IMG/VR virus record: IMGVR_UViG_3300002460_000110
Coordinates: 1 to 33,315 of that record
Source of the DNA: a virus
DNA length: 33,315 nucleotides
Strand: one strand, 5' to 3'
Shown here: positions 668 through 31,237 of the stretch, one piece after another
Numbering within the stretch: position 1 is the first letter of the stretch
Layout: each line of letters starts with the position of its first letter
Translations under genes and position numbers: made by a program
The notes under the pieces: generated by a model
Seen by the model: only the letters and a program-made list of their open reading frames with translations
Told to the model about the DNA's origin: nothing
The model's database searches: none

Positions 668-1119
668 AAATAAAAGTGATAGACAACCGCCGATCTATTG
701 TAGATAAATGTCTGGCTAAAGGAATCCCAGCGCTATGGGGAGATTATTTTGAAGAAGCCTCTAAAATTCCACATCATGTTTTATGCACCGCTTCCAATCC
801 AAACTTCACTTTTGGTGGGGGAATCGATAAAGACTTCCAGTATAACTTTCCTTTCTATTGCAAAGTAAAACAATCTCGAAGATTCACAGGGAATGAAAGA
901 ATTGGAAATATTTGTTTTGTCATTTCAGTTGATCATAAGATGACTTCAAATGAAATTCTAGTGGGAAAAGCGATACAGTTTGCAATAGAAAATACAAAAC
1001 CACACGAAACTCTATGCCTCACCGCGATTGGCACAGGTCTTGGTTTGATGGATGAAACAATCTTTGTCGAAATTTTATGGAAAAATACAGTCTATCCCTT
1101 GGGAGATAGACTGGGTTGA
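664..1119 (+). CDS. macro-domain-like protein (possible ADP-ribose binding)
   Basis: This 151-residue protein has the landmarks of a macro domain: an N-terminal GDYFE-like strand, an SNPNFTFGGGIDKDFQ segment at the position of the usual N-x-x-L-x-x-GGG-hydrophobic-D ligand loop, and TAIGTGLGLMDE matching the second G-T-G-L-G-G phosphate loop. Macro domains bind ADP-ribose or its derivatives and some remove ADP-ribose from proteins or nucleic acids. Phages use such enzymes for NAD metabolism or against ADP-ribosylation defences. Which of these applies here cannot be told. It is coupled to the upstream repeat protein by an ATGA overlap. The last residues lie inside a palindrome (1088-1113), and the domain seems slightly short at its C-terminus. 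Confidence 0.6.
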   Translation: MKIKVIDNRRSIVDKCLAKGIPALWGDYFEEASKIPHHVLCTASNPNFTFGGGIDKDFQYNFPFYCKVKQSRRFTGNERIGNICFVISVDHKMTSNEILVGKAIQFAIENTKPHETLCLTAIGTGLGLMDETIFVEILWKNTVYPLGDRLG

Positions 1120-1177
1120 GGGTTACTATAGACACCTACGTGTCTATATTGAAGTTACTTTGATAGCTATAGCTATC
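1088..1177. repeat. cluster of three palindromes sharing CTAT/ATAG arms
   Basis: Three inverted repeats follow each other. 1088-1113 has 9-bp arms CAGTCTATC/GATAGACTG and covers the 3' end of the macro-domain gene. 1128-1147 has 8-bp arms ATAGACAC/GTGTCTAT with a CTAC loop. 1162-1177 is a perfect 16-bp palindrome, GATAGCTATAGCTATC. None is followed directly by a T tract, so they are not classical terminators. Binding sites for a regulator or recombinase, or a structured 3' end for the plus-strand genes, are possible. Confidence 0.6.
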
Positions 1178-1403
1178 AGTGATTCAATTTTTGCAGTTCC
1201 AGTTGGAACTGAATGTCCGCGTGCGGTGAAATAGGAATGGAATGCGCCATTTTGTATACTTGTTTACAGAAAGCTGAACAAAAATGGAGTTGTCCGTGTT
1301 CTTCTTGACACGCTCCATATCTTCTTTCGGTTATCCATATAGCAGGAAACGCTTGAGCGCACGCTCCGTTATCGCACCTTCGTAGATTTGCTATCATTTT
1401 CAT
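1176..1403 (-). CDS. small putative zinc-finger protein
   Basis: The 75-residue ORF has an N-terminal C-D-N-G-A-C pair, then about 25 residues, then HGQLHFCSAFCKQVY. That is a C-x4-C...H-x6-C-x3-C arrangement like small zinc-binding modules of the TRASH/MYM or FCS type. The following 25 residues look unstructured. It starts at ATG 1403, has no clear ribosome binding site and stands alone between plus-strand genes and the end of the late operon. Its function is unknown. The ordered Cys/His spacing is the main reason to keep it. A chance ORF is possible. Confidence 0.4.
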   Translation of the reverse strand: MKMIANLRRCDNGACAQAFPAIWITERRYGACQEEHGQLHFCSAFCKQVYKMAHSIPISPHADIQFQLELQKLNH

Positions 1404-1463
1404 ACTGTCTATGTTGAGGGGTTACTGTGGTGAATTGTAACTTTCAAAAAGCGTTGAATCCCC

Positions 1464-1513
1464 CTCCCAACAACCCTGTTTTTAGTGTTCCAAAAACATC
1501 TGGTTGTTGGGAG
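1464..1513. other. strong hairpin, 12-bp stem with nested inner stem
   Basis: The arms CTCCCAACAACC (1464-1475) and GGTTGTTGGGAG (1502-1513) are perfect complements. Inside them TGTTTTT and AAAAACA make a second stem around an 8-nt loop. The element lies between converging transcription units, just beyond the last late gene. It has no adjacent T tract on either strand. It may act as a Rho-type or structural transcript end, or as a recombination site. Confidence 0.65.
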
Positions 1514-1558
1514 CGAGATTCATTTTAGTTTCCGTTTATCGGAGAACTCGAATCTCGC
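1513..1558. other. second strong hairpin, 9-bp outer stem
   Basis: The outer arms GCGAGATTC (1513-1521) and GAATCTCGC (1550-1558) are perfect complements. An inner stem AGTT-TCCG/CGGA-(G)-AACT closes on a TTTAT loop. It abuts the 1464-1513 hairpin and lies 14 bp beyond the amidase stop. On the minus strand the late transcript would fold into both hairpins in series, which suggests a transcript-end structure. Confidence 0.65.
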
Positions 1559-1571
1559 ATGATTTAAAATC

Positions 1572-2207
1572 CTACCACTTCTTAAATATACCGCCAAGCA
1601 ATTTTTTAATTTGTAAAAGTTCCAAGACTTTTCGGAGCGCGTTGACAAGTTGTGTGAGGAGTGAGACTTGTTTTTCGAGAGCGGGAATATCGTTTTGAAG
1701 TTGTCCGATAGCCCCAGCGATTCCTTCCGCCGCATTTTTCTGCCAGATTCCTTGTGTTATTTTCGCTCTGTCCATAAAATTAGTTAAATAACAAATCTCA
1801 ATCACAAGTCCGTTAAGTTGCCGGCACCAGCCAAGACTGCCGACTGCCGCATTGGTGTCCGGTATCGCTCCGCGATTTTGAATATCGAGAGAGCTGGAGA
1901 CGTATCGCGCGAAAACATTGGCGATCTTTTCGTTGTTGTAATGATACACTTCCGTGCCTCGAATTTGATTGTTGTTATGGGCATTTAGATGCAAATCGAG
2001 GCATAAATCCCCTGTTTTCCACCCATTCTTTTTCACCCACGCTATCGAATCTTTAAGGTTAAGTTCATCGGGGACATAGAGAGCTTCTCCAATCATTTTC
2101 GCCAGCTCGTCTCTAATTATTTTACAAAGCTCATTTTCTTTATACTGGCCGACAACAACACCCGAATCATCTCTAAAGTGGCCACTATTTACAAAGACTG
2201 TTTTCAT
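1572..2207 (-). CDS. N-acetylmuramoyl-L-alanine amidase endolysin (Amidase_3 type)
   Basis: The 211-residue protein carries the zinc and catalytic signature of Amidase_3 hydrolases: NSGH at the N-terminus (His10), a Glu near residue 24-26, LHLNAH (His73) and VIEICYLTN (Glu137). The enzyme cuts the amide bond between N-acetylmuramic acid and L-Ala in peptidoglycan, so it is the likely lysis enzyme. After about residue 165 the chain becomes a Leu-rich helical tail (PALEKQVSLLTQLVNALRKV), perhaps for oligomerization or membrane contact. No signal peptide is visible, so release would depend on a holin; two small membrane proteins are encoded just upstream. It is the last gene of the late operon, one base from the preceding stop. 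The start has an A/T-rich leader and no ribosome binding site. Confidence 0.9.
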   Translation of the reverse strand: MKTVFVNSGHFRDDSGVVVGQYKENELCKIIRDELAKMIGEALYVPDELNLKDSIAWVKKNGWKTGDLCLDLHLNAHNNNQIRGTEVYHYNNEKIANVFARYVSSSLDIQNRGAIPDTNAAVGSLGWCRQLNGLVIEICYLTNFMDRAKITQGIWQKNAAEGIAGAIGQLQNDIPALEKQVSLLTQLVNALRKVLELLQIKKLLGGIFKKW

Positions 2208-2208
2208 T

Positions 2209-3000
2209 TTATTTATATAATTTATTTATAAACCACGTTATAAAGGACATCAGCCAGTTGTCCTTTTGTTTTGGTTTCAAGGATAAAAAGACACTCTTAG
2301 CCATTTGGATATTATGGTCGGGAGAAAGGAGTTTTATAGATTGGTCGTATGAATCAAATATCTTGAGGAATATATCGTTTCCGTGTTCTTCATAACCATA
2401 ACACATGCACCAATGCGTGTTAGGAAGTTCGTTATCAACATACACTCCGTCCTTTAGAAACCATGCTGTAACGGACACTCCAATAGGGCCATAAGGCAAG
2501 TTGTCCTTTATAATCTTTATTTTGTCCTTTATGTCCTTTTGTCCAGTCCACAGCCATTCGTGCTTTACTTCGTATTTTTGCAACCATTTCTGGCCTTCTG
2601 CGAGGAGGCTCCCATTCATGGGGTTAGGCATGAGAAATTCCTCATAAGTAATAGTCATTGGAAGATGGTCATCGAGAATTAGACCGTCATGTCGGATACA
2701 TTGTAAGACATCATGGGGATCACCACCCGGTGGTTCTATATGAGCGAGAATGTAGGTAAATCGTTCGCTAAAATTTGGCTCAATCTTTGTGATGTATTTT
2801 TGGATTGTCTCAATTAAGTTTTGACTGCCCCACACGGTGCATCCATAGGAATCCCAGTCTCCGCCAAACTGCGGTTCGTATTTTGGAAGAAAGATATCGT
2901 ACTGTCCGTCCTCTCGGAGAATCTTTTTAGTAGTAACAGCTCCAAGAGTGTAGTGGTCAGGTTGGATTTCTTTTAATCTAAGGCCGTAATCTTTAAGCAT
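2209..3000 (-). CDS. papain-like cysteine peptidase
   Basis: This 263-residue protein shows the layout of a papain-fold cysteine peptidase. GGDWDSYGCTVWGSQN carries the putative nucleophile Cys54 at the start of a helix. NTHWCMCYGYEE gives the catalytic His196. The following strand KIFDSYD gives an Asp or Ser at the position of the third triad residue. Proteins of this type occur in phage lysis and tail modules and may cleave peptidoglycan cross-bridges or process virion proteins. The position right before the amidase favours a cell-wall role. The C-terminus (NWLMSFITWFINKLYK) is amphipathic and could touch a membrane. No signal peptide is seen. The papain-like fold is fairly clear; the substrate is not. 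Confidence 0.65.
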   Translation of the reverse strand: MLKDYGLRLKEIQPDHYTLGAVTTKKILREDGQYDIFLPKYEPQFGGDWDSYGCTVWGSQNLIETIQKYITKIEPNFSERFTYILAHIEPPGGDPHDVLQCIRHDGLILDDHLPMTITYEEFLMPNPMNGSLLAEGQKWLQKYEVKHEWLWTGQKDIKDKIKIIKDNLPYGPIGVSVTAWFLKDGVYVDNELPNTHWCMCYGYEEHGNDIFLKIFDSYDQSIKLLSPDHNIQMAKSVFLSLKPKQKDNWLMSFITWFINKLYK

Positions 3001-3001
3001 G

Positions 3002-3304
3002 TTATTCCGGTGTTATCGTTTGTAATGTCTTAGTTTCCGGTAGCTTTATTCCCTGCTTGGCCGCCATTGCCGCCACAGTTTCTTTTATAATAGCGATATT
3101 GGCGTTTTGCTCTTTTAGAATCATACGAATTTCCCTTTTTTCTTCTTCAAGATTGGTAACTCTCGTTTCATGAACAGCAACAGTTGTTTCTATTCCCCCC
3201 ACTTTTGAAAAATACAAAGTCAGAGGAGTGGCAATACCTCCGATAAGGCCGATAATTCCCATGAGGGCGTTGATTGTTATTTGGCCGCGTGTTGAACCTT
3301 TCAT
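3002..3304 (-). CDS. small membrane protein with coiled coil, candidate holin or lysis accessory
   Basis: The protein has 100 residues. Residues ~10-33 (ITINALMGIIGLIGGIATPL) form one membrane helix. Residues ~45-85 are a heptad-like charged helix (RVTNLEEEKREIRMILKEQN). The C-terminus is short and polar. One transmembrane helix plus a coiled coil recalls XhlA-type lysis accessory proteins, although XhlA usually has its membrane helix at the C-terminus. Its place between the HExxH protein and the protease/amidase pair supports a lysis role. It overlaps the preceding gene by 4 bp (ATGA). Confidence 0.6.
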   Translation of the reverse strand: MKGSTRGQITINALMGIIGLIGGIATPLTLYFSKVGGIETTVAVHETRVTNLEEEKREIRMILKEQNANIAIIKETVAAMAAKQGIKLPETKTLQTITPE

Positions 3305-3839: not shown

Positions 3840-5014
3840 TCTTCTTCAATAAAAAATATAATATCAGGGGGTTTGGTAATAACAGCTCCTGCCACTGCTG
3901 GCTCTGTGTAAGTTACAAAACAATCAATGGGGCCTGAAAGCACAGTTTTGTCTGCACTATGTGGATCGTCCGCTCCACCAGTCCACACATCATCTCCGTT
4001 CGTTACACGAAGACTTGCTGTTGCGTCTCTACTTACAGTCCAATTCATTGTTCCAGGGTCTTGAATATGAAAACCTATCCAATACTGTGTACCTCCCACA
4101 ACACTAATGGCGTTTGCTCCTGTAAAATTCAAAGTCTGGGCAGTTTCACTTGTGCTAGTAAATGAACCGTCATCAGTTACGGCTAAGAGATCATCAGGTG
4201 AGTCGGATGTGCTTGAATAAATAACTCCTCGCCAGTTTCCTGTCCCTGCACTTGATAGCCACAATCTACAAGTCATTGAATCTACAGTCCCGCTTGTACC
4301 TGGCGTACCTCTGCTAGTTAATTTGTTGTCTGCTGTAGCGGCAGTTGAACTAGCTCCGTCTGTTTCTTTTCCGAAGTTAGGGTCTACTCTGACAGGGTAA
4401 GTTGCCTTATCCAAAAAATCTTTAGGAATAGTAATGCTTAACTTTCCGTTTTTATAATTCAAGTCTCCCCACACTTCCATTCCGTTAGCGTCAATCGCTT
4501 TTGGCCGATAGATATGAAAAGCTTTACCAGTACCGTACTCATTCCCCGTCTTAGAGTAATAAACCGCATAAGAGTTTATGACATTCTCTGGTACACCCTC
4601 TTCTGCTGTTTGTTTATAGAAGTCAAGACCGTTCACTCCATCCAGAAAGAAGTCAAAAGTATCTTTGTTAGGTTTTTCATTCAAGACAATCTCAAACTCA
4701 AAGTTGTTGTCATCTATTGGGTAGGCATGAATTTCCTCTTTTCCTTCACTGTCTTTCCACTCAACACGACTGGTCAATAAGGTTCTTTTTCCTTGACCGT
4801 CTATATTGTAAGAGACACCCATCCTAACTTCGTTGTCCCACTTAGAGAAAACAATTTTAGATTCGTCTTTGACTATTTCCACTATGGCTTCTCCTCTAGA
4901 GTGTTCAAAGTAGAGTCCTTTATCTTGTAGCTGGTTTATTTGATCGTCGCCAAAAACGACACCACTAACTCCGAGTACAGCTATTGTTCCAAATGTTGCT
5001 AATGTTTTTTTCAT
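3836..5014 (-). CDS. secreted virion or surface beta protein
   Basis: The 392-residue protein opens with a Sec-type signal peptide (MKKTLATFGTIAVLGVSGVVFG, cut near residue 22). The N-terminal half (~25-210) is beta-rich and ends in LDKATYPVRVDP, a motif seen at the end of structural repeats in phage tail and surface proteins. The C-terminal half (~225-375) looks like a jelly-roll sandwich (RLWLSSAGTGNWRGVIY...YWIGFHIQDP), possibly carbohydrate binding. It is the last virion-type gene before the lysis cassette and overlaps the tiny membrane ORF by 4 bp. A receptor-binding or adhesin role is inferred. The signal peptide on a presumed phage structural protein is unusual. Confidence 0.6.
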   Translation of the reverse strand: MKKTLATFGTIAVLGVSGVVFGDDQINQLQDKGLYFEHSRGEAIVEIVKDESKIVFSKWDNEVRMGVSYNIDGQGKRTLLTSRVEWKDSEGKEEIHAYPIDDNNFEFEIVLNEKPNKDTFDFFLDGVNGLDFYKQTAEEGVPENVINSYAVYYSKTGNEYGTGKAFHIYRPKAIDANGMEVWGDLNYKNGKLSITIPKDFLDKATYPVRVDPNFGKETDGASSTAATADNKLTSRGTPGTSGTVDSMTCRLWLSSAGTGNWRGVIYSSTSDSPDDLLAVTDDGSFTSTSETAQTLNFTGANAISVVGGTQYWIGFHIQDPGTMNWTVSRDATASLRVTNGDDVWTGGADDPHSADKTVLSGPIDCFVTYTEPAVAGAVITKPPDIIFFIEEE

Positions 5015-5017
5015 ATC

Positions 5018-8000
5018 CTATTCTCTAGTATATACACCATACACTTGTACATATAGTTGATTCGGCGTTCCGGTAACTGTGCCGGTTTCAAGGATAACCG
5101 ATTCCCCTGCTGTCCATGTCGCATTAGTGGAAATACGGTTGACGGTAGAGGTTGAGGTAGTCGAACACGTTGCGGTTTCTGTATCATTAGCTCCATTTTG
5201 ATCTGAAAGGTTTATAACAATAGAAGTTCCACCCCACACCGAGCACATAATCTCGGTTACTCTAAAGCCGTCTCGTTTTGTACCGAGACCAACATGCTTC
5301 GTTGTTACAAATCCACCATTAAGGAATGGATAGGTTGTGGAAGACATTCCGAAGCTAATGAGTGATTTTGTGGTTGGAAAAACTGCAGGGAAAGAACTAT
5401 CCGTTGAAGTGGCAAGAATGAGTTGATTATCGGTAGTATCAAAAGCTATTTCTCCAGCATTATCTACGAATGGAGCCGCCCCGTTTGGAATCATCATATA
5501 GCCAGACACTCTCAAACTTGTTAATTGCGGAGATGGTGTCCATGCTGGAGTAGACCCATTGTTAGTTAAAACAGTTGAAGATGCTGAAATACTTAACTCC
5601 GCGATTGAGCCTGCTCCAGAACCATACAGCAAATCTCCTGCGCCGATAGCTCCGCCAGCAAAATTATTTAAATCTACAGTCCCTGTCCAATCTCCAGTGG
5701 CATTTAGAGTAAGAGCGCCGGATGTAACTTGTAATCCCGTCCCTACAAAATCAGTGAGTACATCTCCACCGAAGTTTATAGAGCCTCCAGTGATTGTTAG
5801 GCCATTTGAAGAAGATAGACCGGCGGTTCCTATTCCACCGGCAAATGTAGATGATCCGTATCCTTGACCGACTGTCAGTTTACCCGCACCCAAAAGACCG
5901 GCAACTGACAGTTGCGCATAAGGTGAAGTTGTACCTACTCCAATTTTACCGTCCTTATCAATCACAAAAGCGGTTGAAGTTGCGGTTGCGGTTGAGGTAG
6001 AAACTAGAAAAGCAGGAGAACTTGAAAGCGAATTATTGGCAACGCCTAACTGTGCGCCAATTGTGGAAGTTCCAATACCAAAGAATCCGTTGTAATTTAT
6101 TTGGAATCTTTCAAGAGATTTTCCTCCGGCGTTAGCCACCATCATAGTACAAGAAGTAAGAGCGAAACTTGCGCCAGGGGTACATCCAAATTTACCCAAT
6201 CCATTAGGGAAACTAGAACCAGCCGCCTGCATACCAAACCCAATACCAGAATACCCTGCGGCAAACGCGCCGTTTTGATTCAGCCAGAACATCGGTTCAA
6301 GAGCGGTTGAGAATGAACCAGTTAAAGTCAAACGAGTATCGGCAGAGGCCTGTGTAGAAGTACCGATACCAGTGAAGGCGGTGGTGAAGTCATTATCAGA
6401 AGTGAGATATGTGCCGCTATATCCCGTATCTATGATGTTTGTAGTATTTGCGCTAATAAGCGGGCCGGAAATGATTGTATGACTACCCGCATTGTTTATA
6501 CCAACTGTGTTGGCGGTGATTCGTCCTCCACCACTTATAACCGTATTCAATGCGCCAGCAAGAATTGAAATACCCGTTGCGTTTGATTCGAGCCACGGAG
6601 AATCAATGTTAATTCCAATCGAAGAACCGTCAATTTGAATTCCCACTCCTATAGTAGAGCTGGGTTCACTATTTGGTTGTACAAGTTTCCAACCTTCTGC
6701 CGCCACAAAGTTATATCCAACCCCATTTGAATCATCAACAATACATCTTGACATATACATAATATTGTCATTCGCAAGCGTTCCCGAAGCCTCAAAACAG
6801 TTAGAACCAGCGTATCGCATGTTGTTAAAACTTGAATAAAAGGAACGGTTTTGAGAGTCTTTAACAAGGTGTTGAATCAAGAAGTCGGTAATCTCAATAT
6901 GGTCTGTATAGACATTTGAAGTGTCGGAAGTAACAAGGCCAAGCCCGAAATGCGTGCCGTTCGTATTATCAATACTAAAATCTTCTAAAATAACGCGTGT
7001 CAAAGCGGATGTCGTGGCGACAGATACGCACATTCCATCTGTGGAAGCATCGCAGGTAATTATGGTTGAACCCATGCCAGCTCCGACAATTTTTGTATTA
7101 CTTGAAGTGATTGTAACTGGCCCAGCGTAACTTTCTTCTTTCAATCTAATATCTCTCCACCCCGCGTTTATCGCTGTTTGAATGCTCGTATATTCGCAAT
7201 CATTGGCGCAAACAGTTGTTGTTGTTGAAATAGCCCAGTTCTTATTATTTATTCCTGTAAACCATGAAGTTGAAGAGGCGGTAAGCCCTGTTTTCAATCC
7301 AATGAGGGTAGAGGTGGCATTTTCAGTTACACCGAAGTTTGTGCCAGTGGTAAATGGAAAAGCGCCTCCCCCCGCGCCTGTCGCGTCATTCCCATCACAA
7401 AGATCAGCGCTACCAGTAATTGTGGCGCAATTCGGCGTGAGCACTCCTGCTGTATTATCAAGACCAGTGCCGGTTAAGTCGGTAAAAGATTCATTATTTA
7501 ACCGAAACGCTCCTCCGGTTATGGTCAAACCGTTTGAAGATGACAGTCCAGCCGTGGAAACTCTACCTGAAAAGGTGGAAGTTGAATTTGCTTGACTTAC
7601 ATTTATAATACCGGCAAAAGTGGAAGTTCCTGTCGTTGAAGTCGCGGCGATGGTGTCAAAGATACCAAAGGTTGATTTTAGAAAAGTGGAAGCATCCAAT
7701 CCGCCTTTAGTCGTTACATTTCTCGTTTCTGTTGTTGTCCCTGCCGCGCTTATAAGAAAGCCTCCGGTGCTTTGAATATCAAGAAGGCCAGAGCCGGTGT
7801 ATTGGTCTGCCGCGTCAGAGCGAAGGAAAGAAGCTCCCTCGATTGAATCCACAGTCGCCGCATCGGTGCAATTTGAAGTTACAGCGACATCATTGGCATT
7901 GGCGGTTATACAAGTGCCCGCTCCCACCACAAGAGTTGTGCCAGAGGTTGTAAGACCGGCTCCTGCTAAATCGGTGTAGGTTGTAGTGGCTGAACCATTG

Positions 8001-8521
8001 CCGAGTGCGATTCTTTGAAGTGTGAGATAAGTAGTGTCTATGCCTAATTTATCAAATATCCCACCGAAGAACGTGGAAGTAGCGGTAGATTCTACTTGAA
8101 TAGGGATTGTGGTTGTAGGCCGGAGAGTTGAAACTCCAAATTGGCCTGTAAAGAGTTGCCACGATTCACCGAAGCCGCCAGAACCGCCGCCTGTTATACA
8201 ATTAGAGCCAAGAGAGGTGAGAATGCCGGTAGAGCCAAACTGCGCGCACCCAGAGGTTTGCGGAGAAAGAGTGAATGTACCATCTATTTGAAGCGAACCT
8301 CGGAAAAGAGAAGTATTCGTTGTCGAGGTGGCAGTAATAGAACCTACCGTTGGAGAAGTGGTAGCAGAAAGTTTGGAAACACCAGACGTTGAGGTCGCAT
8401 AAATGACACCGCCATATGGTTTTATAATTTCTTGCGACTGATTAAAAACTTGTCCTAGAGATATAAGCGGGACAAGAAAAATAGTTATAAATAAGAGTTT
8501 TTTAGTAAGCGTATTCCACAT
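5018..8521 (-). CDS. large tail spike/fibre with beta-helix domain and signal peptide
   Basis: A 1167-residue protein with a Sec signal peptide (MWNTLTKKLLFITIFLVPLI). ATG 8521 is preferred over 8536 because GGAG sits about 9 bases before it. A Thr/Ser/Ala-rich part follows, with recurring modules (SSTFAGGI, GLSSSNGLTITGG) found at ~310-360 and again at ~895-930. Around residues 430-700 lies a right-handed beta-helix like that of pectate lyases: CEYTSIQTAINAG, then KIVGAGMGSTIITC and many short strands. This is typical of receptor-binding or depolymerizing tail spikes. The C-terminal ~130 residues form a compact domain ending in YVQVYGVYTRE. Many cysteines, often in pairs, would suit disulfides outside the cytoplasm. 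It overlaps the upstream fibre gene by 20 bp. Confidence 0.8.
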   Translation of the reverse strand: MWNTLTKKLLFITIFLVPLISLGQVFNQSQEIIKPYGGVIYATSTSGVSKLSATTSPTVGSITATSTTNTSLFRGSLQIDGTFTLSPQTSGCAQFGSTGILTSLGSNCITGGGSGGFGESWQLFTGQFGVSTLRPTTTIPIQVESTATSTFFGGIFDKLGIDTTYLTLQRIALGNGSATTTYTDLAGAGLTTSGTTLVVGAGTCITANANDVAVTSNCTDAATVDSIEGASFLRSDAADQYTGSGLLDIQSTGGFLISAAGTTTETRNVTTKGGLDASTFLKSTFGIFDTIAATSTTGTSTFAGIINVSQANSTSTFSGRVSTAGLSSSNGLTITGGAFRLNNESFTDLTGTGLDNTAGVLTPNCATITGSADLCDGNDATGAGGGAFPFTTGTNFGVTENATSTLIGLKTGLTASSTSWFTGINNKNWAISTTTTVCANDCEYTSIQTAINAGWRDIRLKEESYAGPVTITSSNTKIVGAGMGSTIITCDASTDGMCVSVATTSALTRVILEDFSIDNTNGTHFGLGLVTSDTSNVYTDHIEITDFLIQHLVKDSQNRSFYSSFNNMRYAGSNCFEASGTLANDNIMYMSRCIVDDSNGVGYNFVAAEGWKLVQPNSEPSSTIGVGIQIDGSSIGINIDSPWLESNATGISILAGALNTVISGGGRITANTVGINNAGSHTIISGPLISANTTNIIDTGYSGTYLTSDNDFTTAFTGIGTSTQASADTRLTLTGSFSTALEPMFWLNQNGAFAAGYSGIGFGMQAAGSSFPNGLGKFGCTPGASFALTSCTMMVANAGGKSLERFQINYNGFFGIGTSTIGAQLGVANNSLSSSPAFLVSTSTATATSTAFVIDKDGKIGVGTTSPYAQLSVAGLLGAGKLTVGQGYGSSTFAGGIGTAGLSSSNGLTITGGSINFGGDVLTDFVGTGLQVTSGALTLNATGDWTGTVDLNNFAGGAIGAGDLLYGSGAGSIAELSISASSTVLTNNGSTPAWTPSPQLTSLRVSGYMMIPNGAAPFVDNAGEIAFDTTDNQLILATSTDSSFPAVFPTTKSLISFGMSSTTYPFLNGGFVTTKHVGLGTKRDGFRVTEIMCSVWGGTSIVINLSDQNGANDTETATCSTTSTSTVNRISTNATWTAGESVILETGTVTGTPNQLYVQVYGVYTRE

Positions 8522-9458
8522 AGAAGTCGTCTCCATTTGAAGCCATTAACACAGTGATAGTATTCCCTGAACGCGACCATTTTGTTGTTTCAGTCAGGAA
8601 CTGACCATTTTGAAATACACCAAGAACCAAAGTCCACGGATTCGCAAGTTGTGTCAGGTCAAGCGTTACGTCATCGCCAGATTGTGTGCCAGAAAGTTTT
8701 TCGATGGAAATAGACATACCGCCGCCAGCTCCGCCACTTCCTCCACGGATAGGAATTTTCTTTATTTCTTTTGGAATCCTCGGCTTATTTTTAAGACCTT
8801 TTTCATAATCGAGTTTGTTTTCAGGTTCGAGTGTTTCAATACCTCTGGCAATTTCTTCAAAAGTAGGCAGTATAATCTCCTTCTCCACTTCTTTGATTAT
8901 TTCCCGTTTCTCGATAATCCGGTCAACAATAGGAATATCAATCTGCGAAGCAATTTTTTGTTTATCCTGTTCACTTAGAATATAAGCATCGCCTTTGTCG
9001 CCTTTAATTGGAGGCGGAATTTCTTTAAGAACAGTTTCTAAAATTCTTTCAACAATTTCGTCTTCATCAGCATCAAGACCATCTATACCCGGGTTCCCTT
9101 GCGGAATTTCTTTAAGAACAGTTTCTAAAATTCTTTCAACAATTTCGTCTTCATCAGCATCAAGACCATCTATACCCGGGTTCCCTTTAAGCATCTCCAC
9201 CTTGCCAAAAAGTTCGCTGAATTTTGTATCTGAAAGTTTTTTATTTATATTTTCATTTACTATTTCAATCGCCTCTTTAAGTTCCTTTCCAACTTCATTC
9301 ATCATACGGTCAAATTCATAGCGAGTTTCTTCCTGAATCGTAGCGATAGAATTTTGTAATTTTTCTTCTGTTCTTTGTTCCAATTCTTTAACAAGTTCCA
9401 TAAGCCCCAATGTTGGAGATGCCCTAAGTTTGATATATTTTTTAAGGTCAATAGACAT
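8502..9458 (-). CDS. coiled-coil fibre protein with duplicated collagen-like segment
   Basis: The protein has 318 residues. Residues ~15-90 are a long charged coiled coil. Residues ~91-150 hold two identical 29-residue copies that begin GNPGIDGLDADEDE and end in a helix, then GDKGD, so short collagen-like Gly-x-y turns alternate with helices. Another coiled coil follows (~185-215), then a Gly-rich linker (GGSGGAGGGMS) and a C-terminal beta domain ending DDFYVEYAY that looks like a fibre tip. The design is that of trimeric tail fibres. It lies just upstream of the spike gene with a short overlap, so the two may form one receptor-binding complex. Confidence 0.7.
   Translation of the reverse strand: MSIDLKKYIKLRASPTLGLMELVKELEQRTEEKLQNSIATIQEETRYEFDRMMNEVGKELKEAIEIVNENINKKLSDTKFSELFGKVEMLKGNPGIDGLDADEDEIVERILETVLKEIPQGNPGIDGLDADEDEIVERILETVLKEIPPPIKGDKGDAYILSEQDKQKIASQIDIPIVDRIIEKREIIKEVEKEIILPTFEEIARGIETLEPENKLDYEKGLKNKPRIPKEIKKIPIRGGSGGAGGGMSISIEKLSGTQSGDDVTLDLTQLANPWTLVLGVFQNGQFLTETTKWSRSGNTITVLMASNGDDFYVEYAY
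9014..9187. repeat. perfect 87-bp tandem duplication inside the fibre gene
   Basis: Positions 9014-9100 and 9101-9187 are identical over all 87 bases, giving a 29-residue in-frame duplication. No substitutions separate the copies, so the duplication is very recent, is kept identical by conversion, or was introduced during assembly. Confidence 0.95.
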
Positions 9459-14064: not shown

Positions 14065-15618
14065 TTAATATACTTTCCAAAAGAAAGCGCGTTGTCCTCC
14101 GGGTGTAGAACATCCCGATCCGCTTCCACCGTCGTTGGTAATCCAATTAAGAGTAAAACTTGTTGAAGATAAAACAGTTAATTGCGCCTCCATGGCTAAA
14201 ACGGTTGTATTACTGTCTGTTACTTCACTGTAAATAATTCTGTTAGGAGAAGTTGAAGCTCGTGGGTAAGATTGAGCATTTGTATCGCTAGAAAAAGTTG
14301 CTATTGAATTCCACATTGAATACTGCGATGTTCCAACTGTTGAAGTGGCCGCGCCGGTTGAATGTACAATCGCGCAGGTATTAGCCGGCGAGTTGTCGGC
14401 ATAATTACCTGAAGCGGTTATTTCAATAAAAGATGGCAATCTTCCTAGTGTGTGATTCACCACTTGATTTCCTGTCGAGCCATTGGCGATAAATGCTGTT
14501 CCCATATCAACATTCGGAGGCATCAAACGTAGATTTCCATTTGAATCTACTGTGAGGGGAGAAGAAGAAGCGACAGAAGTTGTGCTAATTCTAAAACCTC
14601 CAGCAAAAATGGCAGAGTCATTAACTGTAAGTCCTCCGCCCGAAGATAAACTTCCATTGAAATAATGCGCGTTATCCCATCGCACTTCTCCGGCGGTTGT
14701 TGTGGTCGGCAGAAACCAGCGAGAAATTTGGCCTAAACCGTCAGTTGTCGAACCTGTCGGGAATAAGCCTCCTTGCCTGAATACAGACAAAGAATAAGGA
14801 GATGATGTGCCAAAGAGAGAAGAAACAACCAGAGGCCGTCCTTCTGTTGAAGTGCCAATGCCTGTGCCAAGTTGCGAACCTAGAGTCGCAAGTTGGACAA
14901 CTCCCATTCCGCTAAATGTGGAGGTTGGCGCGCCAGTTATTGTCAGCGAATCGGCGTAGCCTCTTGTGGCTAGTTGATTGGAAGAAGAGGCGGCAGTCGT
15001 GCCATTCCACCACGGAATATCATCAAAATTCCACAGTTGAGTGATTGTCTCGGTGTTATTTTTATTAGCATAGCCTTCATAGAAACAAGGCGGAGAATTT
15101 GAGATAACAAACTCTGACGCGCCCGCGTGAGCAGTTTGAAGCGTGGAAGAAGCGGTATAAGGTGGCACACGGTCAAGTCCTCTCGTTACTCCTGTTAATT
15201 GCGCCGTACCATCGGAGTTTTGAGTAACTCCAGTGAAAGAAACGAATTCTTGCTTGCCCGAAGTATTACCCGGTTGAACCGTGCCGCATCCCAAATCTCC
15301 GAAATTCGTTATGGTAAATGTATTATACGAACCGTTTGGCCTCGTATAGCCGAATTTTGTCAAAGAAATGGTCGTCTGCGAGGCAGAAATACCGGAACCG
15401 GAAAGAAAATATCTTTCTCCGCCCACCGCGTTTCGGGTATCTCCACCAAGCGACAGGACGGAATTAACTTTATCAATCGAACTTTGCATTAAATTTTCAA
15501 TTTGATTGATTCGCCTATTCAACTGTGAGCTTTTTGAATCGGAGAAGTAATAGGCTCCATAAATAGTAAGGAGATAGAGAGCGAGAAAAGAAATTATTTT
15601 TATTATGTGAGAGGACAT
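14065..15618 (-). CDS. membrane-anchored fibre-like virion protein
   Basis: The 517-residue protein starts with a membrane helix (MSSHIIKIISFLALYLLTIY) followed by a short coiled coil (SQLNRRINQIENLMQ). Residues ~60-170 include the FVSFTGVTQNSDGTAQLTGV type of segment found in phage receptor-binding proteins that carry TGVTRGLDG motifs. The rest is Thr/Ser-rich beta structure with TSTxG modules and four well-spaced cysteines, ending in a compact tip (AFFWKVY). Architecture and position say tail fibre. The N-terminal helix with extracytoplasmic-looking composition is unexpected for a virion protein, and a cell-surface product cannot be ruled out. No ribosome binding site precedes the ATG. Confidence 0.6.
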   Translation of the reverse strand: MSSHIIKIISFLALYLLTIYGAYYFSDSKSSQLNRRINQIENLMQSSIDKVNSVLSLGGDTRNAVGGERYFLSGSGISASQTTISLTKFGYTRPNGSYNTFTITNFGDLGCGTVQPGNTSGKQEFVSFTGVTQNSDGTAQLTGVTRGLDRVPPYTASSTLQTAHAGASEFVISNSPPCFYEGYANKNNTETITQLWNFDDIPWWNGTTAASSSNQLATRGYADSLTITGAPTSTFSGMGVVQLATLGSQLGTGIGTSTEGRPLVVSSLFGTSSPYSLSVFRQGGLFPTGSTTDGLGQISRWFLPTTTTAGEVRWDNAHYFNGSLSSGGGLTVNDSAIFAGGFRISTTSVASSSPLTVDSNGNLRLMPPNVDMGTAFIANGSTGNQVVNHTLGRLPSFIEITASGNYADNSPANTCAIVHSTGAATSTVGTSQYSMWNSIATFSSDTNAQSYPRASTSPNRIIYSEVTDSNTTVLAMEAQLTVLSSTSFTLNWITNDGGSGSGCSTPGGQRAFFWKVY

Positions 15619-20840: not shown

Positions 20841-21156
20841 TTAAACCGTCCCCATCCATAGATGGGAATTACACACACCGACATCCAAAGTTCCCTTTAC
20901 GATGTCGCCATTGAAGATACAGAGCGCCAGAGTTGCAGGAGTATCACTTTCGTTTTCATCAATCGTGAGCGCGCCGGCGACAGTTGCCGCCGAACGGTCA
21001 AAGTTGACGTAGTCAAAAAGAAGAGGAAGCAATTTTGCGTCCGTATCAATGTTCGCCGCAGTATTTGCTTTACCGCGAAGAACGGTGCCCGGGCCGACCA
21101 ATTCCACAAGCACATTGCCATTTGCAGTGGACGTTTCATCGGATTCAGATCGAGTT
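20841..21156 (-). CDS. head decoration protein, exon 2 (3' exon of intron-split gene)
   Basis: This is the C-terminal ~105 codons of the decoration protein. The reading frame is open upstream of the apparent GTG (21113) as far as a TGA at 21158-21156. That TGA is split or removed when the intron is spliced, because the intron ends at G21157 (or G21151) and the first exon ends in phase 2. The sequence SESDETSTANGN-VLVELVGPG then continues the first exon smoothly. The protein part is beta-rich (GTVLRGKANTAANIDTDAKL, then VDYVNFDRSAA-like) and ends CNSHLWMGTV. Its stop is 20 bp before the capsid gene. Read alone, this stretch would be mistaken for a separate 90-aa gene. Confidence 0.8.
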
Positions 21157-21989
21157 CAATTTGTTATCGTGAATCTCTTTATATTCACATCTGATAGTCG
21201 CCTATCAGTTCAGACTATATCATCACTTTCGTGAGCGGTTTTCGTGGGGATTTTATTGTTGGAACTCAATCCCTAGTCGTTACACCTTCCAGAATACCTA
21301 TGTCCATTCTGGGTTGGCTCGGTATTATCTCTTGTGAGACTTCCACCGAATTTACCGCTTTCTTTAGAAGTTCCTTAAAAAATTCTTCAAAAAGTTGTTC
21401 TTGGTTAAAGGTTTTACAATGACATTTTCTACAAAGAGTAATTCCATTCGAAAGTTCATATCTTAATTCAGGATTATTTACCCATTTTTTAATATGATGA
21501 ACTTCTTTATTTCCACCTAATTCACCACACCAAAGACAAGCGAATTTATCTCTTTCTAAGATATTTCTACTCCATAGTTTAGCGTCAATCCTTTTTCGTT
21601 CTGGGTCATGTCTTCCTTTTCCACCTTTCCAGTTCGGATGTTTTTCACCTCTAAGTTGTAAGTAGGGTTTCCCTTTATTCCACGGAATTCTTGTTTTCAT
21701 AGCACACGTTTTTGAACAGAATTTTTTTCCATTTGAAGGAAAATCTGTAAATTTTACGCCACATTTCTGACAAGATATTTCCCTTTTCAATCCACCTTTC
21801 CACATATTATTTGCAGAACCCGACCCATATCCTTTCATTCCAGTATTCCAAGTTTTATGTCCTTTTTTGAAAATCTGGGGGTTATTTTTTGCCCAAGGAG
21901 CAGGTAAACCTTTATTCCAAGCTGTTCTCATCGTTTAATTTTACGATAAGAACTAAGAATTTTCAAAGAGCTAATGGGACTAACCGTTA
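21157..21989 (-). ncRNA. group I intron in the decoration-protein gene
   Basis: About 833 nt separate two halves of one gene. Core elements on the minus strand: P1, GGGATT of exon 1/intron (21994-21989) pairs with AGTCCC (21981-21976), giving the U-G pair at the 5' splice site after T21990. P region ATACCGAGCC within 21311-21328. P3, AGTCTC with GGGATT. R element GTGTAACGACTAGGGAT (21285-21269). P8 TCAC-GAAA-GTGA (21234-21223). S element GATATAGTCTG (21221-21211), with P7 formed between ACGACTA and TAGTC. P9 CTGATAG-GCGA-CTATCAG (21208-21191). P9.1 GTGAAT/ATTCAC (21188-21169). The 3' end is G21157, or G21151 as an in-phase alternative. The layout resembles phage IA2-type introns. The exact ends are inferred. 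Confidence 0.88.
21266..21931 (-). CDS. HNH homing endonuclease with NUMOD3 motifs, intron-encoded
   Basis: The 221-residue protein has several NUMOD3-like DNA-binding motifs (WNKGLPAPW, GHKTWNTG, NMWKGG, IPWNKGKP, HPNWKGG) and a zinc finger (C54-x2-C57...C72-x3-C76). The HNH nuclease domain spans about 130-175: C132-x2-C135, EVHHIKKW (H145-H146), ELSNGITLCRKCH with C167 and C170. It would nick or cut intronless alleles of the decoration gene and so spread the intron. The ORF starts 58 nt into the intron, between P1 and the catalytic core. Its last ~20 codons (EIIPSQPRMD...GVTTRD) coincide with the P, Q and R core elements of the ribozyme. It appears intact. Confidence 0.88.
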   Translation of the reverse strand: MRTAWNKGLPAPWAKNNPQIFKKGHKTWNTGMKGYGSGSANNMWKGGLKREISCQKCGVKFTDFPSNGKKFCSKTCAMKTRIPWNKGKPYLQLRGEKHPNWKGGKGRHDPERKRIDAKLWSRNILERDKFACLWCGELGGNKEVHHIKKWVNNPELRYELSNGITLCRKCHCKTFNQEQLFEEFFKELLKKAVNSVEVSQEIIPSQPRMDIGILEGVTTRD

Positions 21990-22183
21990 ATCCCGACAAA
22001 AATATCCGTTCCCTGCGTTGGCATACCATCAAGTAGAAGTCCAACAAAACCACCCGTGTTTTTAATCACGGCATCACCCGGTTTGAGCGTTTCCGTCAAA
22101 GAGGTTGCGGTTCTGTCGTCAACTCGGAACTGGTACGAACCGTAGTTGTTATTCTTCAAAGCCTTTAGATCATTTGTTGCCAT
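21990..22183 (-). CDS. head decoration protein, exon 1 (5' exon of intron-split gene)
   Basis: The first 64 codons plus two bases of the decoration protein: MATNDLKALKNNNYGSYQFR, then TSLTETLKPGDAVIKNTGGF and PTQGTDIFVG. Unspliced, the frame would stop three codons into the intron. Spliced at T21990 it joins exon 2 in phase and gives a protein of 169 residues (167 if the alternative 3' site is used). A small beta-rich protein directly upstream of the major capsid gene is the usual place for a head decoration or stabilising protein. The start ATG 22183 has a run of A before it and no Shine-Dalgarno sequence. Confidence 0.8.
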
Positions 22184-29224: not shown

Positions 29225-29609
29225 ATCGGACTTTATTATTGGCAGACGGGTAATAATATGGGTTCACTTGACGCAAATAATCATCAAGGGGGTTATCATT
29301 CTGCGGATAAGGCAATGTCTTGCCCTGATATTTATCTTTGTATGAGTCATAAAGCTCGCGGACATTTTTCTTTCCGCTTTCCGCCGCCGGTTTCTCTTTC
29401 TGATCGGAATTCAAAAAATCTCCATAAGAACAACTAAACGCCTCACAAAATTTGAGCAATTCTTCGACTGTAATCTTGCGTTTGCCTTGTTCTATTGAAG
29501 TAACAGCCCCGCGGGACAAACCGACTTTTTCCGCAAGTTCCTCTTGCGTCATTCCGGCCTTTTGGCGGAAATCCTGTATTTTTTTGTAGAGATTTGGTGG
29601 TTTCGTCAT
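29214..29609 (-). CDS. XRE-family (Cro/CI-type) transcriptional regulator
   Basis: Residues ~8-65 form a clear helix-turn-helix: KIQDFRQKAGMTQEELAEKV, then GLSRGAVTSIEQGKRKITVE and ELLKFCEAFSCSYGDFL. The remaining ~60 residues are polar with a Tyr/Pro-rich end (NPYYYPSANN) and no known ligand domain. XRE proteins bind palindromic operators as dimers. The GTATAC palindromes at 28509-28523 and 28669-28678 are the nearest candidates. Its start overlaps the groEL stop (ATGA), so it is made together with the chaperonin. It may control a lysogeny-like or timing switch. Confidence 0.85.
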   Translation of the reverse strand: MTKPPNLYKKIQDFRQKAGMTQEELAEKVGLSRGAVTSIEQGKRKITVEELLKFCEAFSCSYGDFLNSDQKEKPAAESGKKNVRELYDSYKDKYQGKTLPYPQNDNPLDDYLRQVNPYYYPSANNKVRYEQ

Positions 29610-31237
29610 CCTAAATTTATATCTTGGTTTTCATCGGCTCTCCAATCTGTTTCCGTTCCTCTAAACTGCTTCTTCACTATTTCCTCAAACTTATCAAGGA
29701 GTTCCACTCGCTTCTCCGCTATAACAATGTCAACGGTGATAAGTTTGGCAATAATAGAACAAGCATTTTGTACCGCCAACCTCGTTACCTTTGTCGAATC
29801 AAGCACTGTTTCAGGAATGATAAAGATACCACCTGCATTTTCCATGATTCTTTCATACGGCGCTCTTAGCGCCTTGTACAAGATATTATTTTCTCCGAGT
29901 TCCTCCGCTATTTCCATAAGACATTGACCACCTCCCTCTACCACACCTTCTTCCATAGCCGCTTTAGTCGCATTCTTAGCATCTTCCATTTTATCCTTTT
30001 TGAATGTTCGCTCCTGTTCAGTAGCGGCGCCGACGCGAATAATAGCCATGCCGGCCGCGAGAGCGCTGATTCTCTTTTTTGTCTTATTCTTAAACATCAT
30101 GTCCTTTTCCAAGTTCATATGTTCGGTAAGGACAGCAATTCGTTCGTCTACCTTACCCCTCCCGCCACTTATACTGAAATTATCTTCGTCCACAACCACT
30201 TTTTTAGCAAAGCCGAGCCATTCCGTAGTACATCGCACATCCGTTAGCTTCATACCTTTATTTCTATCAACAAATTTCGCATCGCAAAAACAGGCTACGT
30301 CTTCAAGTTCTTCCGATGTCAGCGCGGGACACTTCACCAAGAGAATGTGAGGGCGGTATGATTCTCCTTTATTTCGCGCCACGGTAGTATTAAGAATACC
30401 AACGATAAATGGTTTAGAAAAAGCGGTATTTTCATATCCGTTGAAAATAACAAGGTTTTTATTTACTACCTCCAGTTGTCCAAGGTCTTTAATGAGCTGT
30501 AATATGGCATTCGGTGAATCAATAGGGTCGTTACAAACCAAAATCTGCGTATCCACCCATATTGCCTCTTTATTATTATTGTTTGAAAAATATGGGCTGG
30601 CGTAAGTGCCAAGATGCCTCATCCCAAGAGAGAGTTCGGTATCCACGCTATATTTTGTGTACCAATTATCTTCAATGGACACATAGCCGTGTACTCCCAC
30701 TTTCTTCACCACTTCCGCGATAGCCATGCCGTCTTCCTCGTTTCGCATTGATGTAACGGCAACATTCTTCAAATCATCCGCTCCTGCCTCCCTGCTCCTT
30801 TCCTTAATCTTTTCCACGACTATTTTTGCCTCTTTTTGAATTTCATCTCCCAGTAAAACAACATTTGTTTCATTCCCTATGATATTTTTGTTTATCTTCT
30901 CGTAGACGGAACGTAATAAAGCGCCGGCGATAACGGCTGTAGTACTTGTCCCGTCTCCCGCCGTTTCGTTTGTCTTCATGCAGGCTTCCACCATCACTTG
31001 CGCTCCTAAATCCTCCACCTCGTCTTCTAGCGTGGTATGCCGAGCGACAGTAACACCATCATTGGTAATCGGCGGAGACTTGTAATTTTTATAAATAAGG
31101 GCGTTTCGTCCGCCGGGCCCAAGCGTCCGGCCTACCATATCGGCAACAGTGATCGCCCCTCGTGCCACGCGAGAACGAGTGTCATTCCCTTCCGGCATCT
31201 TGTCCTTTGTTTCAAATGAAATTATTTTTTTAATCAT
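29606..31237 (-). CDS. groL: phage-encoded GroEL chaperonin (HSP60)
   Basis: A full-length 543-residue group I chaperonin. ATP site: RTLGPGGRNALI (~37-48), ITNDGVTVAR with Asp60, TAGDGTSTTAVIAG with Asp95, and KMEDAKNATKAAMEEGVVEG with Asp419, the counterparts of E. coli Asp52, Asp87 and Asp398. All catalytic Asp are kept, so it should hydrolyse ATP. TLGPGG replaces the usual TLGPKG, and the C-terminus lacks the GGM tail, ending in TDWRADENQDINLG. No groES-like gene is seen in the window. Phage chaperonins in other systems help fold capsid or other viral proteins. The ring may work alone or with host GroES. It is followed by an XRE regulator in the same operon. Confidence 0.93.
   Translation of the reverse strand: MIKKIISFETKDKMPEGNDTRSRVARGAITVADMVGRTLGPGGRNALIYKNYKSPPITNDGVTVARHTTLEDEVEDLGAQVMVEACMKTNETAGDGTSTTAVIAGALLRSVYEKINKNIIGNETNVVLLGDEIQKEAKIVVEKIKERSREAGADDLKNVAVTSMRNEEDGMAIAEVVKKVGVHGYVSIEDNWYTKYSVDTELSLGMRHLGTYASPYFSNNNNKEAIWVDTQILVCNDPIDSPNAILQLIKDLGQLEVVNKNLVIFNGYENTAFSKPFIVGILNTTVARNKGESYRPHILLVKCPALTSEELEDVACFCDAKFVDRNKGMKLTDVRCTTEWLGFAKKVVVDEDNFSISGGRGKVDERIAVLTEHMNLEKDMMFKNKTKKRISALAAGMAIIRVGAATEQERTFKKDKMEDAKNATKAAMEEGVVEGGGQCLMEIAEELGENNILYKALRAPYERIMENAGGIFIIPETVLDSTKVTRLAVQNACSIIAKLITVDIVIAEKRVELLDKFEEIVKKQFRGTETDWRADENQDINLG

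Follow-up and report, generated by a model that had tools for sequence, protein, structure and literature searches.

A group I intron with its own HNH endonuclease gene very probably interrupts a small head protein gene of an uncultivated phage

Group I introns of subgroup IA are known from several phages, including those in td, nrdB and nrdD of T4 and those of Twort, SPO1 and the Bastillevirinae (PMC2988022, PMC11878797), with nuclease genes that overlap ribozyme elements being known in other phage introns (PMC11878797). Phage head genes are also among the established hosts of group I introns. The capsid gene of the Cluster J mycobacteriophage LittleE holds an intron for which splicing was proven by RT-PCR, and that report also cites an intron in the capsid gene of the lactococcal phage Tuc2009 (PMC3706429). 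Here we analyzed a stretch of 33 315 nucleotides (IMG/VR record IMGVR_UViG_3300002460_000110, positions 1–33315; hereafter called the window), being a metagenomic contig of an uncultivated phage. Positions 21989–21157 on its minus strand very probably constitute a group I intron that interrupts the gene of a small head protein. This intron carries the gene for its own DNA-cutting enzyme and, judging by its anatomy, almost certainly self-splices. Its RNA core, its splice-site anatomy, the colinearity of the flanking exons with intronless relatives and the intact HNH open reading frame (ORF) were each established computationally, as described below.

The likeness to the phage IA introns extends to the core helices P3–P9, a P7.1-type insertion between P7 and P3, the P9.1 hairpin, a U·G pair at the 5′ splice site, a terminal G and an internal homing endonuclease gene of the kind that can overlap the core. 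The described IA introns, however, lie in genes for nucleotide metabolism or polymerases, whereas the present one lies in a small head protein gene of an uncultivated lineage. The LittleE intron resembles it in being group I-like, in carrying an endonuclease gene and in lying within a highly expressed head gene, but there the ORF is LAGLIDADG-related, lies on the opposite strand and resides in the major capsid gene, while in the window it is of HNH type, lies on the sense strand and belongs to the gene that precedes the capsid gene. In Tuc2009, as far as it is described in the citing report, a structural gene likewise hosts a group I intron. What distinguishes the window is thus its host gene and its lineage, and a small head protein gene of an uncultivated lineage would hereby join the known hosts of phage group I introns. 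Earlier reports of an intron in a decoration gene may exist, our literature search having been limited.

All window genes and RNA elements discussed here are on the minus strand. Exon 1 of the small head gene (22183–21990, 194 nt) runs from its ATG to DIFVG(I), and exon 2 (21156–20841, 316 nt) from (I)TRSESDETS to MGTV and the stop codon. When unspliced, exon 1 reads as an ORF of 67 aa (22183–21980) ending at a stop codon at 21980, and exon 2 as an ORF at 21113–20841 that is open upstream to 21155. Removal of the 833 nt at 21989–21157 joins the two exons in the same phase into 510 nt, encoding 169 aa plus a stop, with no internal stop codons and no frameshift in either exon. The original prediction, that two seemingly independent ORFs would form one protein of about 169 aa once about 833 nt were removed, with 194 + 316 nt giving 170 codons, was hence borne out in both frame and arithmetic.

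Relatives of the split gene gave a view of the same protein without any interruption. Full-length uninterrupted homologues were found in four other viral contigs, being 34–52% identical and aligning without gaps across the junction when G21157 was taken as the last intron nucleotide; no closer intronless allele was found, and the spliced protein had no match among annotated phage records. The uninterrupted homologues were those of L002/L031 (160 aa), L029 (171 aa, 52% identical), L030/L034 (170 aa) and L033, with L032 holding a partial or more distant one. The contig L034 (JAFCGI010000007.1) is binned as Candidatus Pacearchaeota, which reflects either a virus belonging to that group or an error in binning. 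A protein profile built from four intronless homologues and run on all 956 reading frames of the window matched exactly two of them, namely exon 1 (HMM positions 1–66, E 3.9e-8) and exon 2 (HMM positions 69–155, E 7e-23). The joined protein scored 118.6 bits, compared with 77.0 and 27.0 bits for the single exons. Homologues that align to only one half had been named as evidence that would speak against the split; the relatives instead aligned across the two halves with a single uninterrupted ORF.

At the 5′ splice site, P1 (21994–21976; fold −8.8 kcal/mol) is formed by exon GGGAU (21994–21990) and the adjoining intron UA, which pair with intron UAGUCCC (21982–21976). The helix thereby reaches into the intron by a U–A and an A–U pair beyond exon GGGAU and intron GUCCC, and it places a U·G wobble (U21990·G21980) at the splice site. 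At the 3′ end, G21157, G21151 and G21118 are the only Gs within 21200–21101 that keep a stop-free frame. G21118 was rejected as it would remove 13 residues present in the homologues, and the choice between the other two had been left open in the original prediction. Splicing after G21151 would give an intron of 839 nt and a protein of 167 aa, and being only 6 nt away this site is likewise in phase and stop-free, but its product aligns to each of the four full-length homologues only with a gap of two residues, and the profile score of the joined protein falls by 7 bits, to 111.6. Because G21157 gives the higher score and alone needs no gap at the junction, we favor it as the terminal (omega) G. 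Use of G21151 would also make the tail after P9.1 about 6 nt longer than that of the related L029 intron (see below), whose tail agrees with G21157, and no P10 pairing was found for the AUCUGA that would then begin exon 2. We consider the G21151 alternative quite improbable. With G21157, a possible P10 can be read from the sequence between exon 2 AACU (21156–21153) and intron GGUU (21985–21982), this pairing being weak, of 4 bp with one G·U and offset by one base from P1.

The catalytic core was matched by the Rfam group I model RF00028 at 21401–21191 with 62.7 bits, above its gathering score of 50, as had been proposed as a check; E was 3.5e-15 over 1.4 kb and 8.3e-14 over the whole window in permissive mode. 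A default fast-filter Rfam scan of the whole window with gathering filters missed the intron, which we ascribe to the filters since it was found both by scanning a restricted region and in permissive mode. Searches of the window, among them the permissive Rfam scan of its full length, revealed no further intron. Gene calling would break intron-split genes of this kind, and a fast whole-window Rfam scan can overlook them.

All RNA elements named in the original prediction (P1 with its U·G, P3, P7, P8 with a GAAA loop, P9 with a GCGA loop and P9.1) are present. Within the RF00028 match, P3 pairs GCGGU (21358–21354) with ACCGC (21239–21235) and encloses P4 (21349–21345/21323–21319), P5 (21340–21336/21331–21327), P6 (21318–21316/21286–21284) and P6a (21312–21306/21295–21289). 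P7 pairs GACUA (21278–21274) with UAGUC (21217–21213) in a pseudoknot with P3, and a P7.1-like hairpin (21273–21268/21252–21247) lies between P7 and the 3′ strand of P3. P8 (21234–21223) is supported by the RF00028 match and covariation, P9 (21208–21191) by these and by its fold, and the P9.1 hairpin GUGAAU/AUUCAC (21188–21169) by its fold and by an equivalent hairpin that occupies the corresponding position in L029. A P7.1-type hairpin set between P7 and the 3′ half of P3 typifies subgroup IA, and the helix plan of the window intron would correspond to that of the phage IA subgroups, Rfam having one general model and no subgroup model. Upstream, an 11-bp hairpin (GUUCUUAUCGU/ACGAUGAGAAC; 21953–21924) folds with −14.5 kcal/mol (z −6.4, reached by 0 of 200 shuffles) and is probably P2.

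To evaluate the core by covariation, a covariance model was made from the cores of the window and L029 introns, which gave at least 83 cores in at least 71 sources, most of these loci having been retrieved by exact matching to two patterns around P7; the family of the window intron is thus common in viral contigs. Among 67 distinct rows, 88.0% of the cells paired, compared with 61.2% upon shuffling and 33–47% when slid, percentages that are biased towards the model to which the alignment was fitted, with the gap to the slid controls being large. Two-sided changes were seen in 41 of 42 pairs across the 67 distinct relatives, none of 500 shuffles reached any of the observed measures, and compensatory changes occurred in each of P3, P4, P5, P6, P6a and the P7.1-like hairpin. 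The core helices between P3 and P9 are thereby backed by covariation with the exception of P7 itself, which stands outside the count because the model holds no pseudoknot and because the relatives were picked on P7-flanking sequence. In some contigs several matches to the intron model lie close together (four in L188:167–2620, three in L126:5138–6860 and two in L180:568–1233), which suggests multiply split genes or twin introns.

Reading the intron as a ribozyme was correct with regard to the core but incomplete, as the intron also holds an intact HNH endonuclease ORF of 221 codons that the original prediction lacked. This ORF (21931–21266, 221 aa) has its HNH domain at residues 132–173 and matched PF01844 with 27.4 bits (cut-off 21.4), phrog_1271 with E 4.6e-19 and other HNH families. 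It starts from the ATG at 21931, within the 3′ arm of the P2-like hairpin, and approximately its last 31 codons traverse P3 to P7, so that its 3′ end overlaps these helices.

Other readings of the region were weighed against an active intron. The exons could be separate, unrelated small genes flanking a free-standing HNH gene, their fit being due to chance. Such stand-alone HNH genes occur commonly in the late operons of phages, and the ten closest HNH relatives by sequence had no surrounding intron in a permissive scan. Yet a single profile matches the two halves in succession, with E values of 3.9e-8 and 7e-23 among 956 frames, and a complete group I core lies between them; we regard this reading as refuted by the RF00028 match together with the profile matches in both exons, leaving it a negligible probability. 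A degenerate intron that has lost splicing, leaving the gene broken or made as two separate polypeptides, would fit with the in-frame stop codon at 21982–21980 that follows exon 1 and with an internal GTG at 21113 that could in principle start exon 2. It fits poorly with intact core helices, an HNH ORF kept open over 221 codons, the U·G pair in P1, the terminal G and exons free of frameshifts, and we judge it slightly less likely still than use of G21151. We therefore retain the interpretation of a functional group I intron.

With such an intron, the small head protein gene of the late head operon would be the host of a mobile element. With an external guanosine, the ribozyme would cleave 3′ of U21990 and then ligate U21990 to A21156, restoring the 169-aa protein through the pair of transesterifications characteristic of group I introns. 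The HNH protein would presumably nick or cut the uninterrupted allele in a co-infecting relative, with repair of the cut allele copying the intron in, that is, homing. The P2-like hairpin might also, as a guess, occlude the AUG and thus limit translation of the endonuclease from the unspliced transcript.

A companion intron was found in a related phage, L029 (IMGVR_UViG_3300033407_000319), in which RF00028 matched 5225–5488 with 64.3 bits. There a 942-nt group I intron splits the major capsid gene (L029:4535–6421) directly behind codon 16, and splicing from 4583 to 5526, with G5525 as the terminal G, restores the frame of the capsid protein. The start thus restored (MAGPNTGLSPNTVKSGLDEVFY) is similar to those of the capsid proteins of L002 and of the window. 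Its P1 (GGGU|UA/UAGCCC) has the same design as that of the window, and its P10 (UAGAU/AUCUA), again a reading from sequence, is a perfect 5 bp. The two phages share a related ribozyme, an internal HNH ORF and the same gene neighborhood, but in L029 the intron is in the major capsid gene, the HNH protein has a different N-terminus and the homologue of the split gene is intact, whereas in the window it is the major capsid gene that is uninterrupted. Two related phages hence hold related introns at different sites in neighboring head genes. That these would be recent local copies was rejected, as the two cores are 68% identical and that of the window is nearer to L186 and L146 (75–76%), with L204 and L197 also close (71–76% for all four). 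At least the L197 and L186 introns lie in or at apparent capsid genes, as based on ORF content. In L186 the apparent capsid gene (988–3088, minus strand) is split by a related intron with an HNH ORF (1980–2759) opposite in strand to the intron, as in LittleE.

An intron serving as a weapon in phage competition has been shown for the RNA polymerase gene with PhiPA3 and PhiKZ (PMC11620839). By analogy, adjacent head genes in the present lineage might be alternative homes for related HNH-armed introns. In co-infections, the endonuclease of each might target the intact head gene in the competing phage, so that the introns would be reciprocal weapons against virion assembly, an idea that we find doubtful. 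The window and L029 form a natural comparison of related introns in neighboring head genes for tests of homing and competition.

The original prediction called the interrupted gene a head decoration gene. Its location immediately ahead of the gene for the major capsid protein agreed with this, whereas no significant family match did. The next gene (20821–19877) resembles an annotated major capsid protein (E 2e-5) and has the gene order of L002 and L029; in L002, L029 and L030, as in the window, the split-gene homologue lies directly before the gene in the major-capsid position. Neither PF02924 nor PF22758 matched at threshold, the best being PF22758 (Phage_cement) with E 0.072 for one of the seven sequences scanned. 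AlphaFold gave unusable models of an intronless homologue (mean pLDDT 36.1 alone and 31.5 with five sequences), searches of solved structures gave chance-level matches only, and a search for close relatives of the capsid protein in viral contigs found none. The main head proteins of this lineage have almost no Pfam or PHROG matches, and a decoration role is plausible from gene order.

Some further features of the window were observed. A GroEL-like chaperonin gene (29606–31237) scores well under the GroEL equivalog cut-offs and is for that reason taken as a divergent viral type. Short tandem repeats at the start of the contig (1–190), with repeated peptides in several frames, possibly represent an assembly edge or a repeat protein. 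Two long tail-region proteins (5018–8536 and 14065–15618) are rich in TSTS/ATSTS repeats, a repeat style seen in Patescibacteria-associated sequences. Another tail-region protein (8502–9458) has an internal duplication, with GNPGIDGLDADEDEIVERILETVLKEIP present twice.
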